Shown: positions 2,059 to 40,012 of the stretch, piece after piece | Numbering within the stretch: position 1 is the stretch's first letter | How the letters are laid out: the number at the start of each line of letters is the position of its first letter | Assembly: GCA_031178355.1 (NCBI GenBank) | Contig: JAPSJC010000006.1 | Coordinates: forward strand, 1 to 64,000 | Direction: 5' to 3' | Source: Ureibacillus sp. | Lineage (GTDB): Bacteria > Bacillota > Bacilli > Bacillales_A > Planococcaceae | Length of the DNA: 64,000 nucleotides | Made by a program: the position numbers and the translations under genes | The notes under the pieces: model-generated | Databases searched by the model: none | The model's input: only the letters and a program-made list of their open reading frames with translations | Told to the model about the DNA's origin: nothing

Positions 2059-2941
2059 ATTATTTTCAGCCCTTTTCTTACGAATATTTTGAAAATTAAT
2101 AAGAAAAATAGAAATATTTAATTTTTATGACCTCTACGGTAAATACTACATCCCCTCCTTAAACGCCTTATTACGATTTAATGAATGTAAAATTCATCTA
2201 TCCACTATTATTATAGTAAATCTTTAGCGTATTATTAATTGATTTGTACATGTAAAGTTTATGTAAATTAGGGCAACTGCATAGAATACATTCATTAGAA
2301 AGAATTTAATTAGGGAAATAAAGCTTAGTAATATCGGAAGACGGTATCTGTAGGGTAAATTTAAGGTGAATTTGCATCTTTAGTCCTTGAAGCTGGCTGG
2401 CCGATATGATTAAGCGTTGATAATGTACGACAAGTAGAAATAATGGTTAGTTACTATAAGATATTAAAAAATCATCAATTTAATATGGGCAACTATCTAG
2501 AAGCATTGACACAAATTATGGCGGTTAGATGGGTTATAATAAGATGATAGTCGGTATATTTTAAGATTGCGAAGAGTAATTACTGAATAATAAGATAATG
2601 GTGATAAATTTTCACTATCCTTTATTAGTCATAACAGTCTCATCATTAAGTTCTTCATCTAAATTGTGTTAGTTATATTGGATATTTGGAAACAGTGTTA
2701 AAATGGCTATAAATACTGTTTGTAAAGGTGTTGAACATATAAGATGCTGAATTATAGATTACAGTAGTCATTAATGATAGCTAAACCTTCCAGGTAGAAA
2801 ACATATGGTGTATATAGTAGTGGCTATGGTAAAAAAGAATTTTACTACGCAATTTGTCGAAATGTCGGATTTAAAATTCATTACTATTACAACTATTTTA
2901 TAAGGTAGAAGAAAACTTAACAGCAAAGGGTGTTAAATGAT
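2059..2941. other. gene-poor interval with a possible coding fossil
   Basis: About 880 AT-rich bases with no intact gene. Bases 2365-2547 read as about 60 protein-like codons in one frame (FASLVLEAGWPI, then LSVDNVRQVEIMVSYYKIL) interrupted by TGA at 2407 and lacking a start and ribosome site; it may be the remains of a gene I cannot identify. On the minus strand an isolated AAGGAGGGG (2148-2160 region) has no start codon after it. No terminator or convincing promoter was found. Confidence 0.4.
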
Positions 2942-3412
2942 TTGGAAAATGCAGTGCCAATGGGACAATCTCGTACTATCCAATCACGTCTAGTATTACC
3001 ACCAGATACAAATCATCATTTCTCCATTTTTGGTGGTAAGGTGTTAGCCTATATTGATGAAGTAGCCGCCATAGCAAGTATGAAACATGCAAAAAGTGAA
3101 ATTGTAACAGCTGCTTTTGATTCTGTGGATTTTAAATCGCCAGCAAATGTTGGTGATATATTAGAATTAGAGGCAATCGTCACTTCAACGGGAACTACTT
3201 CAATGGAAGTATATGTGAAAGTGAAATCAATTAATTTCCGTACCGGGGAAGAAAAAATAACTACTGAATCATTTGTCACAAACGTTGCAATTGATAACAA
3301 AGGTAAACCAGTTACCGTTCCAGGTGTCTATCCTGAAACTGAGGAAGAAAGAGTATTATATGAAAAAGGACTTGTTCGGAGAAAACAACGAATGGACAGT
3401 CGCAAAGAATAA
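2942..3412 (+). CDS. hotdog-fold acyl-CoA thioesterase (YkhA-like)
   Basis: Members of this family hydrolyse acyl-CoA thioesters to free fatty acid and CoA in the cytoplasm. The family pattern is clear: the DTNHHFSIFGGKVLAYIDEVA segment carries the conserved N-x-x-G-x-x-F-G-G-x-x-x-x-x-x-D element, followed by the DSVDFKSPANVGD strand region. Length (156 residues) suits a single hotdog domain. TTG at 2942 is chosen because AAAGGGTG lies 9 bases before it; GTG at 2930 would sit on the ribosome site, and ATG at 2960 is an alternative. The physiological substrate is unknown. Confidence 0.85.
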   Translation: MENAVPMGQSRTIQSRLVLPPDTNHHFSIFGGKVLAYIDEVAAIASMKHAKSEIVTAAFDSVDFKSPANVGDILELEAIVTSTGTTSMEVYVKVKSINFRTGEEKITTESFVTNVAIDNKGKPVTVPGVYPETEEERVLYEKGLVRRKQRMDSRKE

Positions 3413-3432
3413 CGAAAAAGGAAGTATTCTTA

Positions 3433-3651
3433 ATGTGGAAACAACGATCAAAATACGTCATCCCTACGATGATCATTGTAGCTGTCGCTGCAACATATAT
3501 GTTGGTCAATTATTATGGGGAAGTACAAACCTATCATAAAGTAATCATTATTATTGGCGCCATGTTATTTTCAGGTCTTATATCAGCATTATTATTCCCA
3601 AAAGATGAACATAACGTTGATGAGAAAAAAGTGGGAAATGGAACTAAATAA
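3433..3651 (+). CDS. small two-helix membrane protein
   Basis: 72 residues: a short basic N-terminus, two hydrophobic helices (about residues 9-26 and 36-55) and a charged C-terminal tail. GGAAG lies 7 bases before the ATG, and the gene follows the thioesterase by 20 bases, so the two are likely co-transcribed up to the strong terminator just downstream. I recognise no family and no function. Confidence 0.7.
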   Translation: MWKQRSKYVIPTMIIVAVAATYMLVNYYGEVQTYHKVIIIIGAMLFSGLISALLFPKDEHNVDEKKVGNGTK

Positions 3652-3660
3652 GTAGTAAAT

Positions 3661-3702
3661 AATATCCGACTAAATACGTAAAATATTTAGTCGGATATTT
3701 TA
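3661..3702 (+). terminator. strong Rho-independent terminator
   Basis: A perfect 16-base-pair inverted repeat (AATATCCGACTAAATA and its complement) with a 7-base loop, followed by TTTAATTT. It isolates the thioesterase pair from the ctsR operon. Confidence 0.9.
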
Positions 3703-3790
3703 ATTTCCTAATTTTTGAAAAAAACTTCTTTAAGTAGTCTTGTTTTCAAGAAATTTGTCAATGCTTCATAAGATGATATAGGTTTATTAT

Positions 3791-3838
3791 TTGCATTTTT
3801 TATGAACCGTTAATATAATAAAGTCAAAGATAGTCAAA
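3791..3838 (+). promoter_or_regulatory. ctsR operon promoter with CtsR operator
   Basis: A SigA-type promoter, TTGCAT (3791-3796), 17-base spacer, TATAAT (3814-3819). It is overlapped at the expected transcription start by AGTCAAAGATAGTCAAA (3822-3838), an exact match to the known CtsR heptad direct repeat RGTCAAANANRGTCAAA. Binding there would block initiation, giving autoregulated heat-shock control of ctsR-mcsA-mcsB-clpC. Confidence 0.93.
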
Positions 3839-3868
3839 GTCAGACTCTAGTGAGGTGAGGTATAAAAA

Positions 3869-4336
3869 ATGAGAAATATATCTGACATCATAGAAGGGTA
3901 TTTAAAACAAGTTATCGAATTAGGAGGCAAAGAACATATTGAAATAAAGAGAAGCGAACTGGCAGACAAATTTCAATGTGTTCCCTCACAGATTAATTAC
4001 GTTATTAATACACGCTTTACCGTCGAAAGAGGGTATCTTGTTGAAAGTAAAAGAGGTGGCGGTGGTTATATCCGTATTCTACGAATAAGGCCAAACTCTA
4101 AGCTTGAATTATTAGATGCAATGATTGATCAAATTGACAATGGTGCAACACAGTCTATGGCAGAAGATATAGTCTATCGACTGATTGACGAAGGTGTCAT
4201 TACTATGCGGGAAGCGAAACTTATGCTCGCAGCCCTTGATCGTTCAACTTTAAGGTTGCAATTACCTGCTAGGGATGAACTGAGATCCTACATCATGCGA
4301 GCGATGCTTACTACCTTAAAATACGATAGCCAATGA
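3869..4336 (+). CDS. ctsR: CtsR, class III heat-shock repressor
   Basis: Represses clp genes by binding a tandem heptad operator and is released on heating. 155 residues, the family's usual length. The N-terminal winged-helix part includes the RGGGGY glycine loop (residues 62-67) known as the intrinsic thermosensor; the C-terminal half is the dimerisation and McsB-contact domain. GAGGTGAGG precedes the ATG. First gene of ctsR-mcsA-mcsB-clpC, with its own operator in the promoter. Confidence 0.97.
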   Translation: MRNISDIIEGYLKQVIELGGKEHIEIKRSELADKFQCVPSQINYVINTRFTVERGYLVESKRGGGGYIRILRIRPNSKLELLDAMIDQIDNGATQSMAEDIVYRLIDEGVITMREAKLMLAALDRSTLRLQLPARDELRSYIMRAMLTTLKYDSQ

Positions 4337-21303: not shown

Positions 21304-21445
21304 TGTTGTGAATCATCCATTTGTACCGTAGACAGTAGGGGTGCTTAGACACTTAATCATCCTACCGAGGACATCGGAAATCAGATTCTTTTTTAGATGA
21401 TGACTTTCTGCCTCTGTGTCTATGAGACATAGAGGCTTTTCTTTT
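21304..21445 (+). ncRNA. L10 leader RNA with attenuator
   Basis: Known Firmicute leader class bound by the L10(L12)4 complex. The segment CAGTAGGGGTGCTTAGACAC and the following CCTACCGAGGACATCGG form the L10-binding region. It ends in a 12-base-pair terminator, arms 21410-21421 and 21425-21436 with an ATG triloop, then a T-rich run, giving premature termination when L10 is in excess. Confidence 0.85.
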
Positions 21446-21481
21446 GTCGGTATAAATGACATTCTAATAGGAGGTGTCAAA

Positions 21482-34874: not shown

Positions 34875-36062
34875 ATGGCTAAAGAAAAATTTGACCGTTC
34901 GAAAACGCATGCTAACATTGGTACAATCGGACACGTTGACCATGGTAAAACTACATTAACTGCTGCAATCGCTACAGTTCTTTCTAAAAAAATGGGTGGT
35001 ACAGCTAAATCTTACGCTGATATCGACAACGCTCCAGAAGAAAAAGAACGTGGTATCACAATCAATACTTCTCACGTAGAGTATGAAACTGAATCTCGTC
35101 ACTATGCACACGTTGACTGCCCAGGACATGCTGACTATGTTAAAAACATGATCACTGGTGCTGCTCAAATGGACGGCGGTATCTTAGTAGTTTCTGCTGC
35201 TGATGGCCCAATGCCACAAACTCGTGAGCACATTCTTTTATCTCGTCAAGTAGGTGTACCATACTTAGTAGTATTCTTAAACAAATGTGATATGGTAGAC
35301 GACGAAGAATTATTAGAATTAGTTGAAATGGAAGTACGTGACTTACTATCTGAATACAACTTCCCTGGCGATGACATTCCTGTAATCAAAGGTTCTGCTC
35401 TTAAAGCTCTTGAAGGTGAACCAGAATGGGAAGAAAAAATCGTTGAATTAATGGATGCTGTTGATAGCTATATCCCAACTCCAGAACGTCAAACTGACAA
35501 ACCATTCATGATGCCAGTAGAGGACGTATTCTCTATCACTGGTCGTGGTACAGTTGCTACTGGTCGTGTAGAACGCGGTCAAGTTAAAGTTGGTGACGTA
35601 ATCGAAATTATCGGTCTTGCTGAAGAAGCTAAATCTACAACTGTAACTGGTGTAGAAATGTTCCGTAAGTTATTAGACTATGCTGAAGCTGGAGACAACA
35701 TCGGAGCTTTATTACGTGGTGTTGCTCGTGAAGATATTCAACGTGGACAAGTATTAGCTAAACCAGGCTCAATCACTCCACATACAACTTTCAAAGCTGA
35801 AGTTTACGTTTTATCAAAAGAAGAAGGTGGACGTCATACTCCATTCTTCTCTAACTACCGTCCTCAGTTCTACTTCCGTACAACTGACGTAACTGGTGTT
35901 ATCAACTTACCAGAAGGCGTAGAAATGGTTATGCCTGGTGACAACATTGAAATGTCTGTAGAACTAATTTCTCCAATCGCTCTTGAAGAAGGTACTAAAT
36001 TCTCTATCCGTGAGGGTGGACGTACTGTAGGCGCTGGTGTAGTAGCTACTATCGAAAAATAA
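34875..36062 (+). CDS. tuf: Tuf, elongation factor Tu
   Basis: Delivers aminoacyl-tRNA to the ribosome, 395 residues. G1 GHVDHGKT (19-26), DCPGHADY, and NKCDMVDD motifs are present. TAGGAGGC precedes the ATG. The strong terminator right after it ends the str operon; the next 3.6 kb are not part of the usual superoperon. Confidence 0.98.
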
Positions 36063-36076
36063 TAATCTGCAATTCT

Positions 36077-36117
36077 AACCAACTCCTGGGGACGCCCTAG
36101 AGTTGGTTTTTTCTTTT
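36077..36117 (+). terminator. Rho-independent terminator after tuf
   Basis: AACCAACTC/GAGTTGGTT arms with further pairing inside, followed by TTTTTTCTTTTT. Confidence 0.9.
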
Positions 36118-36159
36118 TAATTTATTTCTTGAATTTCGACATTAATCGAAGGTGTTATT

Positions 36160-36760
36160 TTGAATGTAAAAGTTATTTTAATTGAAGATGATCAATCAAT
36201 TTTTTAAACAGTTCGAGAACGTTTTTGCAATGGACTATGAAGGTAGTAAGAACAACAAATTCCAAAAAGTGATTGGTTATTTTATCGAGAAAATGACTCA
36301 TCTAGCTCTTACTGATATTCAGTTACGTGCATATGATGGCTTCCATTGGGGCAAAGAAATACGAGTAATTTCAAATGCGCCTATAATAATATGATCATTT
36401 CAAGATTCTCCAATGGATAGTTATGGCCATGCAAATGGGTGCCGACGATTTTATTCAAAAGCTATTACATATGGATGTTCTTTTAGCAAAAGTACAAGCG
36501 TTATTTAGGCGAACTTATGATTATGTGGAAGTACATACTGATATTTAAATTATTGATTATAAAAAAGATACAATAACAAACGATTTAACTTACTAAAAAT
36601 GAACTATTTATATTACGAGTTCTTTTACAATCTCATAATCAGATTGTTTCTAGGGATGAGCTTATGCGTAAATTAGGGGATGATGAAAGGTTAGTAAATG
36701 ATAATACATTATCTTTTAACATCAATCGTCTGGTTTAGTATTAAGGTGGCAGTTACAATA
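36160..36760 (+). pseudogene. decayed OmpR-type response regulator (BceR-like)
   Basis: Starts plausibly at TTG (36160) with VKVILIEDDQSIF, the acidic receiver pocket, then hits TAA. Later pieces continue in other frames: ALTDIQLRAYDGFHWGKEIR (phospho-acceptor Asp region), MQMGADDFIQK, and a winged-helix part with QIVSRDELMRKLGDD and NDNTLSFNINRLV before more stops. Several frameshifts and stop codons make it non-functional. Order and sequence point to the regulator of a bacitracin/peptide-sensing Bce system. Confidence 0.8.
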
Positions 36761-36772
36761 TAGAGGTAATCC

Positions 36773-37390
36773 ATGTTGACTTTATTTTTAAGAGAGCGTA
36801 GATACCTTTTTTCCTAATTGTCCTCCTATTCGTGAACATATTATTCTATCTTGATATAGGTTTGTTAGTGGTTCGGTTGATTATTTTAATTTAGAAATAA
36901 TATCTTTATTCACAGTATTTCTTTTATGGCATTATAAAAATGAAGTAAACTAGTTTAAAAAATTTCCTAGGAAATATATATGAAAATAACTTTAACGTGA
37001 TACAAACCAACAATTTTTCTCCATTTCAATGGAAGTACAGAGATGTACTTTATGAACTGATTCAACAGAAAGACAATATACTAAATAACACAAAGATAAA
37101 AGTGCAAGGGAATACGGATGATACTCTCGAGTTATGAAAATATAGAAGTACATATATACACAGAAGTAGATTTGCACAATTATATACTTTTACACAGATT
37201 CATGGTGTTGGAATTAATAGTGGTGATTTACCTAGAGTATTTCAAAAATTGTTTACAGGTACTATAGGGAGAGAGTCCAAATATTATTCTTAAAGTGCTG
37301 CAAAACGACTTTGCTTGACGTTCTATGCTCTATTGATTATCCGTCAGAAGGTATGGTGGAGATTAAGGTCAAAATTCAAGAGGAATGAAA
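36773..37390 (+). pseudogene. decayed BceS-like sensor histidine kinase
   Basis: ATG 36773 opens MLTLFLRERRYLF, then a frameshift; membrane-helix text (FLIVLLFVNILFYLDIG) follows in another frame, as in short intramembrane-sensing kinases. Far downstream the ATPase G-box survives as HGVGINSGDLPRVFQKLFTGT. The region between, including the phosphohistidine box, is no longer readable in any frame. Adjacent to the regulator remnant, so the two formed one two-component system. Confidence 0.7.
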
Positions 37391-37500
37391 GAAAAAGATT
37401 TAGCTTCCTTTAGACGAGACCAGTAAGGATTATCTTCCAAGACTATAATTTACTTGATACATTGACAGGAAGGAAATTGTTGAAGGAACACCTTTATGTA
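37385..37500 (+). pseudogene. fragment of BceA-like ABC transporter ATPase
   Basis: Only an internal piece remains: MKEKDLASFRRDQ, stop and frameshift, then IFQDYNLLDTLTG, matching the Q-loop region of MacB/BceA-type ATPases. Walker A, signature and Walker B are all gone, so most of the gene has been deleted. Confidence 0.7.
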
Positions 37501-37529
37501 TACTCCACAACCCTATGAACAATTACGAA

Positions 37530-37905
37530 GGGTAATATAGCAACTTTTGGCATAACTATGTTTGTTACTTCCTTTTAGAATTGGCATTCTTATTAACAAC
37601 AGGGAGTATATTATACTTTAAACAGATGGCAGAAGCAGAAGATGAAAAAGGTAGCTATACTACATTAAGAAACATGGGCTTTTCAACAACTGATATTAGA
37701 GGTATTTATGCAAAACAGTTATTTGGTTTTGGTGTGTCTTTTTTAATTGGTCTATTGCATCGTATCTTTGCAGTAAAATCTGGGTGGTTTTTATTTGGAA
37801 CAGAATTAAAGCACCACTAATCACTACAATGACTATATATATTCTCATGTATGCAATAATTTCGATCCAGTATTATAAAAGGTTTGTTAAAAATTCAATA
37901 TAATA
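37530..37905 (+). pseudogene. C-terminal fragment of BceB-like FtsX permease
   Basis: A readable stretch (GSILYFKQMAEAEDEKGSYT, LRNMGFSTTDIRGIYAKQLF, AVKSGWFLFGTELK) matches the last third of BceB permeases before a stop and frameshift; residual hydrophobic text continues to a tandem stop near 37903. A 79-codon open frame (37581-37820) survives, but it lacks a ribosome site and most of the protein. It completes the fossil BceR-S-A-B order. Confidence 0.75.
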
Positions 37906-37914
37906 GAAGAAAGT

Positions 37915-37955
37915 CGTTATAATATCTGAATCTACTGAATATTATAACGTTTTTT
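37915..37955 (+). terminator. Rho-independent terminator after the fossil Bce module
   Basis: Perfect 11-base-pair stem CGTTATAATAT/ATATTATAACG followed by TTTTTT. It is intact although the genes before it have decayed. Confidence 0.88.
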
Positions 37956-37961
37956 AACATA

Positions 37962-37990
37962 TTGACATTTATTTTATTTGCTATTACACT
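37962..37990 (+). promoter_or_regulatory. promoter of the YuiF-like transporter
   Basis: TTGACA (37962-37967), 17-base spacer, TACACT (37985-37990), 43 bases before the start codon. Confidence 0.75.
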
Positions 37991-38033
37991 TTAACACATC
38001 ATCAATTTAGCAGAGGAAAGTGTGAGGTACATC

Positions 38034-39350
38034 ATGAATGCAGTCATAATAGCAGTAGTCGTAATGTTAGTTTTAAGTTTATTACGTGTTAATGTAGTAA
38101 TTTCTTTGGTTTTGGGTGCCGTCATTGGTGGTTTAACAGCTGGTATGTCTTTACCGGATACTATCACTGCATTCCACAATGGACTAGGGAATGGTGCACA
38201 AGTAGCTCTAAGTTATGGGTTACTAGGAGGATTTGCAATTGCCATTTCAAAAACAGGAATTACTGAAATTTTTATAGATAAGATTTTAAAATTAGTCCGT
38301 CAAAATGGAGAAACAGAAAAGAAGGGGTACATTAAGGCACTTATATTCTTCTTCTTATTATTAATGGCAATCTTTTCGCAGAATTTAATACCAATTCATA
38401 TTGCATTTATTCCATTATTAGTACCACCGATATTGAAAATTTTAAACATACTAGAAGTTGATCGCCGATTAATTGCGTGTATCCTAACATTTGGTTTAGT
38501 TACACCCTATATGCTATTACCTTATGGTTTCGGTTTTATCTATCGTGATATTCTAGCAACACAAATAGGGTTATCTGGGCTAGAGGTCAATATTAATGAT
38601 TTTACAAAAGCAATGGCTATACCAGCCTTAGGAATGTTACTTGGTTTAATTGTCGCTTTCTTCACTTACAGAAAACCAAGAGTATATAAAACTATTCAAG
38701 TGGAAGAAGAGAAACTTGAAGTTACTGTTAAAACACGTAACATTATATTCACGATGTTATCATTGATCATTGCAGTTGTTATTCAGATTATAACTGGTTC
38801 TATGATCGTAGGTGCACTTTCGGGTATTCTTGTGTTGTATATAACTGGTGCACTAAAATGGAATGATGCGGATGTTATATTGTCTGATGGAATGCGAATG
38901 ATGGCTTTTATAGGATTTGTAATCATCGCTGCTAATGGATTTTCATCAGTAATCAATGCAACTGGAGATGTAGAAAGTTTAGTAGGGAATACTTTAGACA
39001 TTGTAAACGGTAATGTCAGTTTAGCTGTATTACTAATGTTAATAGTAGGCCTAGTTGTCACAATGGGTATAGGTTCTTCATTTGCAACGATTCCAATTGT
39101 AGCAGCTATATTTGTTCCATTAGCTATAGAATTAGGATTAAGTGAATTAGCTATCATCGCTCTAATAGGGACAGCAGGGGCATTAGGTGATGCGGGTTCG
39201 CCTGCTTCTGACTCAACTTTAGGACCTACATCTGGGCTAAATGCAGATGGGCAACATAATCATATATGGGATTCAGTAGTACCAACATTCATATTTTATA
39301 ACATTCCCTTAGTGGTATTCGGTTGGTTAGCTATTATGTTTGTACTGTAG
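38034..39350 (+). CDS. yuiF: YuiF-like Na+/H+ antiporter-family transporter
   Basis: 438-residue integral membrane protein of the NhaC-type/ion-transporter superfamily with about 11-12 helices. The C-terminal GDAGSPASDSTLGPTSGLNA signature and GIGSSFATIPI closely resemble B. subtilis YuiF as I recall it. Substrate is uncertain (sodium/proton or amino-acid exchange). ATG 38034 with GTGAGG 6 bases upstream is preferred to GTG 38022. Monocistronic, with its own promoter and terminator, lodged between tuf and rpsJ. Confidence 0.88.
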   Translation: MNAVIIAVVVMLVLSLLRVNVVISLVLGAVIGGLTAGMSLPDTITAFHNGLGNGAQVALSYGLLGGFAIAISKTGITEIFIDKILKLVRQNGETEKKGYIKALIFFFLLLMAIFSQNLIPIHIAFIPLLVPPILKILNILEVDRRLIACILTFGLVTPYMLLPYGFGFIYRDILATQIGLSGLEVNINDFTKAMAIPALGMLLGLIVAFFTYRKPRVYKTIQVEEEKLEVTVKTRNIIFTMLSLIIAVVIQIITGSMIVGALSGILVLYITGALKWNDADVILSDGMRMMAFIGFVIIAANGFSSVINATGDVESLVGNTLDIVNGNVSLAVLLMLIVGLVVTMGIGSSFATIPIVAAIFVPLAIELGLSELAIIALIGTAGALGDAGSPASDSTLGPTSGLNADGQHNHIWDSVVPTFIFYNIPLVVFGWLAIMFVL

Positions 39351-39356
39351 TAATAA

Positions 39357-39386
39357 AGTAGCCTTTTTAATAAAGGCTACTTTTTT
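39357..39386 (+). terminator. Rho-independent terminator after yuiF
   Basis: Perfect AGTAGCCTTT/AAAGGCTACT stem with a 5-base loop and six T. Confidence 0.92.
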
Positions 39387-39546
39387 ATGTTGTTGAAAAG
39401 TTGTTAACTCAAATTACCAGTATAAAATTTAGATAAAACAATTGAATACTGCGTGTATATTATATATACTGTTTAAGGTCTAGTGAAAAAGATTAGCAGA
39501 AAGAGATATACAAACATAACAATAATAAAGAATTTAGCAAAAATGC

Positions 39547-39575
39547 TTGCTTATTCTTTTTTTATTGTATATAAT
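39547..39575 (+). promoter_or_regulatory. S10 operon promoter
   Basis: TTGCTT (39547-39552), 17-base spacer, TATAAT (39570-39575). The start would fall near 39582, giving a leader of about 120 bases before rpsJ. The stretch from 39387 to 39546 holds no gene. Confidence 0.8.
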
Positions 39576-39580
39576 GTTGA

Positions 39581-40012
<432 letters not shown>

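Follow-up and report, generated by a model that had tools for sequence, protein, structure and literature searches.

In the Bce family, cell-wall-targeting peptides such as bacitracin are sensed by a complex of BceS and BceAB, while BceR induces bceAB and BceAB frees targets of the lipid II cycle. BceS is an intramembrane-sensing kinase with two transmembrane segments, a short linker and no large sensor domain, and BceB is an FtsX-type permease with a large extracytoplasmic loop. The BceRS-BceAB system of Bacillus subtilis is a bacitracin sensing and resistance module of the Bce-like subfamily IV (PMC3023708), and the published consensus for Bce-type regulators is TNACA-N4-TGTAA (PMC9020739). 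Frequent gain and loss of Bce modules, with pseudogenes included, has already been described (PMC3023708).

Here, we analysed a stretch of 64,000 nucleotides from Ureibacillus sp. (the window), in which a first-pass annotation had placed a fossil Bce-type module between tuf and rpsJ. This interval spans positions 36063-39703, and approximately 1.75 kb of it, following the tuf hairpin, contains no convincing open reading frame. The Bce pieces among the features listed below were identified by comparison with G002, the sister genome of the window genome in a tree of fusA, tuf and S10-operon genes, which carries an intact module.

34875-36062, + strand: tuf (EF-Tu), intact open reading frame of 395 aa, which adjoins the module in relatives; 5′ boundary of the interval
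36077-36112, + strand: terminator-like hairpin of tuf (-19.0 kcal/mol, z = -4.1), followed by a T run
36160-36767, + strand: bceR pseudogene, with 88% of its length retained (tblastn match with the G002 orthologue at E 9e-36; alignment)
36773-37297, + strand: bceS pseudogene, about 51% left (tblastn; alignment)
37298-37467, + strand: bceA pseudogene, about 22% left (tblastn E 2e-10; alignment)
37468-37469, no strand: deletion junction between bceA and bceB, 1985 bp missing relative to G002 (alignment with L010, L009 and L011)
37469-37903, + strand: bceB pseudogene, C-terminal 22% left (tblastn E 8e-36; fragment match to B. subtilis BceB)
37914-37954, + strand: terminator-like hairpin of the former module (-11.3 kcal/mol, z = -2.8)
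38034-39350, + strand: Na+/H+ antiporter family gene, intact, not a Bce component (PF03553, E 9e-66)
39592-39688, + strand: intact S10 leader RNA preceding rpsJ (RF03136, 36.9 bits; gathering score, 35.1)
39704-40012, + strand: rpsJ, intact (open reading frame; relatives); 3′ boundary of the interval

The tuf terminator, the antiporter gene and the S10 leader are unaffected by the decay of the module. An open frame at 39581-39703, upstream of rpsJ and fused to it (MLVFDCDEA...), seems highly conserved across the genus; since it overlaps the S10 leader RNA, this conservation probably belongs to the RNA and not to a protein. Elsewhere in the window, an L10 leader RNA (RF00557, 81 bits) lies at 21308-21451, upstream of the rplJL genes as expected.

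When the proteins of the intact G002 module (locus L010) were used as tblastn queries against window positions 36000-39400, pieces of BceR, BceS, BceA and BceB were all recovered, in the order R-S-A-B, all on the + strand and interrupted by frame changes and stops. Residues 8-214 of the 242 of BceR matched 36142-36732 in several frames (E-values of 9e-36 and 1e-23), residues 1-123 and 228-289 of the 340 of BceS matched 36773-37278 (main pieces 3e-22 and 9e-13), residues 56-111 of the 263 of BceA matched 37302-37467 (2e-10), and residues 521-669 of the 669 of BceB matched 37470-37900 (8e-36 and 7e-8). As measures of sequence similarity, these E-values are far beyond chance, and a scrap at 37581-37817 on its own matches B. 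subtilis BceB at 1.1e-24. The stretch is thus a pseudogene remnant of a four-gene Bce-type module, as the first-pass annotation had proposed. The limits given there, 36160-37955, were also essentially right: the remnants occupy approximately 36160-37903, and the hairpin, which had been read as the terminator at the end of the module, extends to about 37955. Its sequence is common to the relatives and was aligned in L009 and L011.

To assign the family, the intact G002 proteins were compared with solved structures. The permease matched B. subtilis BceB over its full length at 1.1e-147 and PsdB at 1.4e-39, while the ATPase matched BceA at about 1e-101 and PsdA at 6e-80. The kinase of 340 aa aligned over its full length with BceS (5e-71), and by this orthology the earlier identification of an intramembrane-sensing kinase is probably correct. 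Pfam domains of the intact module were Response_reg and Trans_reg_C, HATPase_c, ABC_tran and FtsX; none of the four Bce proteins scored above the cut-off of any NCBIfam family. Together with the BceB match of the window scrap, these comparisons confirm the Bce assignment, which had been made from family similarity. Among the structures matched, which included none of YxdLM, the values for permease and ATPase led us to reject the Psd type (PsdRSAB). In 15 of 18 relatives, the motif TGACA-N4-TGTCA is found at the bceS-bceA junction. By their membership of the family, the intact orthologues in relatives would act in peptide sensing and in the release of lipid-II-cycle targets.

The window genome also contains an intact Psd-like module on contig C80. 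It shares the R-S-A-B architecture of the Bce module but belongs to a different lineage and lies at another location, its permease scoring 2e-50 against PsdB and 4e-31 against BceB. Conservation of the Psd-like permease extends to all 10 genus mates tested. An intact Bce copy relocated within the same genome was considered as well and rejected for the sequenced part, as a BceB profile search of the draft (76% complete, 158 contigs) gave only the pseudogene and the Psd-like permease; a copy in unsequenced DNA would escape this search.

To describe how the window copy is broken, the remnant was aligned at the DNA level with three intact relatives: G002, U. manganicus (G011) and U. acetophenoni (G006). 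Of a module of roughly 4.5 kb, deletions have removed about 2.7 kb, leaving 88% of R, 51% of S, 22% of A and 22% of B, and the frame-breaking indels number around a dozen or more, with small frameshifts of 1-2 bp dispersed over the surviving sequence. The bceR pseudogene contains in-frame stops and about five frame-breaking deletions. In bceS, the N-terminal part has a broken frame, and a 344-bp deletion removes the central part, namely the kinase core including the region of the phospho-acceptor His. The 3′ end of bceS was lost together with the bceS-bceA junction, which carries the BceR-box region, and the 5′ part of bceA. This loss of the junction explains why no TGACA-N4-TGTCA box was found in window positions 35500-39800. 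What is left of bceA starts inside the Walker A region, ends at the Q-loop (IFQDYNLLDTLT) and carries two 1-bp frameshifts. The 1985-bp deletion then joins bceA to bceB, whereby the rest of bceA and approximately three quarters of bceB are gone. The surviving part of bceB is the last FtsX-type transmembrane part, with four 1-bp frameshifts, and the large loop is deleted. Because of these frame-breaking indels, stops and large deletions, no working kinase or transporter can come from the remnant.

The window-specific substitutions number 68, 56 and 62 at first, second and third codon positions, at 498, 548 and 328 comparable sites, respectively. They are nearly even over the codon positions and thus reveal little codon constraint. 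The corresponding counts are 18/11/52 for the intact sister module of G002 and 35/6/48 for the antiporter gene of the window, which served as the constraint control and is constrained. The excess at third positions, when counted per site, would fit a module that still worked during part of the branch and was dead thereafter.

These lesions also bear on two other readings of the locus. Since the genome is a draft of 158 contigs, errors of sequencing or assembly could be suspected of making intact genes look broken. However, base-calling errors do not yield deletions of 344 and 1985 bp or excess substitutions spread equally over codon positions, and the flanking genes on the same contig are open and constrained. 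In addition, two other genomes, one of which consists of only two contigs, show decay of their own at this site. On the large deletions, the codon-position pattern and the intact neighbour control, we rejected an assembly artefact, which we regard as extremely improbable. A remnant that still has some role, whether transcribed as a spacer, yielding short peptides or binding DNA through a BceR-like part, might seem compatible with the preservation of bceR over 88% of its length and of the hairpin at the end. Nevertheless, bceR itself is interrupted by stops and by frame-breaking indels, of which there are about five. The module has lost its kinase core, its BceR-box region and most of the ATPase, and the substitutions reveal little codon constraint, all of which makes such residual activity very unlikely. 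A dead remnant remains the preferred reading of the window copy.

The first-pass annotation had considered the acquisition of a resistance module into the most conserved gene cluster, followed by decay, to be unusual. This view is contradicted by intact orthologues that occupy the same site across Ureibacillus and in no fewer than five other genera. The same R-S-A-B set lies intact between tuf and rpsJ in 17 of the 17 first-sampled genus mates with contigs spanning the interval, and in nearly all sampled Ureibacillus. In a scan of named genomes, 46 of 80 BceB loci were flanked by both tuf and rpsJ, and these belong to six named genera (Ureibacillus, Lysinibacillus, Psychrobacillus, Viridibacillus, Solibacillus and Caryophanon); the module is located elsewhere in Sporosarcina, Planococcus, Bhargavaea, Rummeliibacillus, Kurthia and others. 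The BceB proteins from tuf-rpsJ loci form one clade with a support of 0.98, in which only the Kurthia and Rummeliibacillus copies, located elsewhere, are nested, and this nesting fits a later relocation in these genera. The same site in Ureibacillus and five further genera, together with the single clade, indicates that the module was inherited and that its placement is ancient. The simplest account is that the module was inserted once, long ago, and then descended vertically, although one internal node of the BceB tree has a low support of 0.46.

A recent acquisition of a foreign Bce module into the ribosomal cluster, followed by its loss, would agree with the frequent horizontal transfer for which Bce modules are known (PMC3023708), and some genus mates indeed lack the neighbouring antiporter gene or carry extra inserts there. 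It is difficult to reconcile with a single BceB clade and with an identical site at which nearly all genus mates, as well as five other genera, carry intact orthologues. Furthermore, the remnant is nearest to its sister group, which consists of G002, G011 and G006, as vertical descent predicts. Recent horizontal acquisition was rejected on the shared site and the single clade, and we give it hardly any credence compared with inheritance of the module.

The tuf-rpsJ seam was also surveyed in 60 other genomes from the class, 53 of which have both genes on one contig. The spacing is below 500 bp in 23 genomes and 0.6-41 kb in 27, and the two genes are far apart in 3, so that 30 of the 53 have more than 600 bp between them. 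With extra DNA or a break in over half of these genomes, the seam is permissive and not especially conserved, and the placement of the module at such a junction is not remarkable. Within the genus, it also hosts malate synthase-like and LysR-like genes and a group II intron reverse transcriptase. By eye, five loci (L013, L016, L020, L024 and L025) contain two genes between tuf and the Bce module, one resembling malate synthase G (about 730 aa) and the other encoding a divergent LysR-type regulator. In G002, a group II intron reverse transcriptase/maturase (TIGR04416, 1e-121; L010, oriented 2658-4052) is located between tuf and the intact module.

The two other genomes with decay at this site, G166 (L118) and G191 (L119), carry broken Bce modules between tuf and rpsJ and are placed on a branch separate from that of the window genome and G002 in the tree of fusA, tuf and S10-operon genes. 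Across the locus, the two share about 95% identity, yet they differ in their frameshifts, their stops and the ends of their deletions of about 2.1 kb. The deletion in G166 brings the 5′ part of bceS beside the 3′ part of bceB. No common frame-breaking lesion was seen among the window genome, G166 and G191. The separate branch and the differing lesions imply that the module was inactivated at least twice, perhaps three times, within the genus; a common first hit of G166 and G191 within the region deleted in both is possible. A Psd-like permease or module has been retained at another location in each of the three genomes and may make the loss of the Bce module less costly. Moreover, G166 encodes a pair of a 255-aa Bce-like ATPase and a 621-aa permease (L125 4553-7160; G166:C2, approximately 1541.5-1544.2 kb), which adjoins a divergent two-component system whose kinase is larger and not a BceS. 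G191 has a BceB-like permease in an open frame of the same length as the 621-aa permease, and no such BceB-like permease was among the matches listed in eight other genus mates searched. The pair in G166 is a possible candidate for a replacement of the lost module. A more general proposal is that the module has been lost repeatedly and independently in Ureibacillus (window genome, G166 and G191), maybe due to a cost of its position between two very highly expressed operons or to a niche free of peptide; we advance it tentatively and consider it rather doubtful. If true, repeated loss would make Ureibacillus a natural series for how resistance modules die.

Combined, the locus is almost certainly best explained as a whole by an inherited Bce-type module that has become a dead remnant in the lineage of the window. 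The module would have entered the tuf-rpsJ junction in the common ancestor of the six genera and then have been passed on vertically. After the split from the intact G002, it was inactivated in the window lineage and degraded through large deletions, small frameshifts and substitutions under no constraint. This loss may have been tolerated in a niche without the inducing peptide, or because the retained Psd-like module was sufficient, or both. The case is one of ordinary lineage-specific gene loss and not of a strange insertion, and only the decay is local. What appeared to be an odd insertion in a ribosomal cluster is a long-inherited resistance module, dead in one lineage. The practical value is modest: the stretch should be annotated as bceR, bceS, bceA and bceB pseudogenes, and, for Ureibacillus, Lysinibacillus and related genera, the intact tuf-rpsJ copies should be treated as a Bce locus that is ancestral and stable.

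In the literature searched, which was covered in part, no description of the tuf-rpsJ location or of repeated decay in Ureibacillus was found; as to mechanism, nothing here is new. The remnant resembles the Bce-like pseudogenes of Firmicutes, where degenerate components were likewise detected by tblastn and modules are frequently lost (PMC3023708). Compared with BceRS-BceAB of B. subtilis, the gene order R-S-A-B is the same, and the orthologues in relatives match the BceB, BceA and BceS structures best. The box upstream of bceA in relatives, TGACA-N4-TGTCA, resembles the published consensus and differs from it at one position of the right half (PMC9020739). In contrast to the B. subtilis system, the window copy is a non-functional remnant that lies between tuf and rpsJ and from which the box has been deleted.
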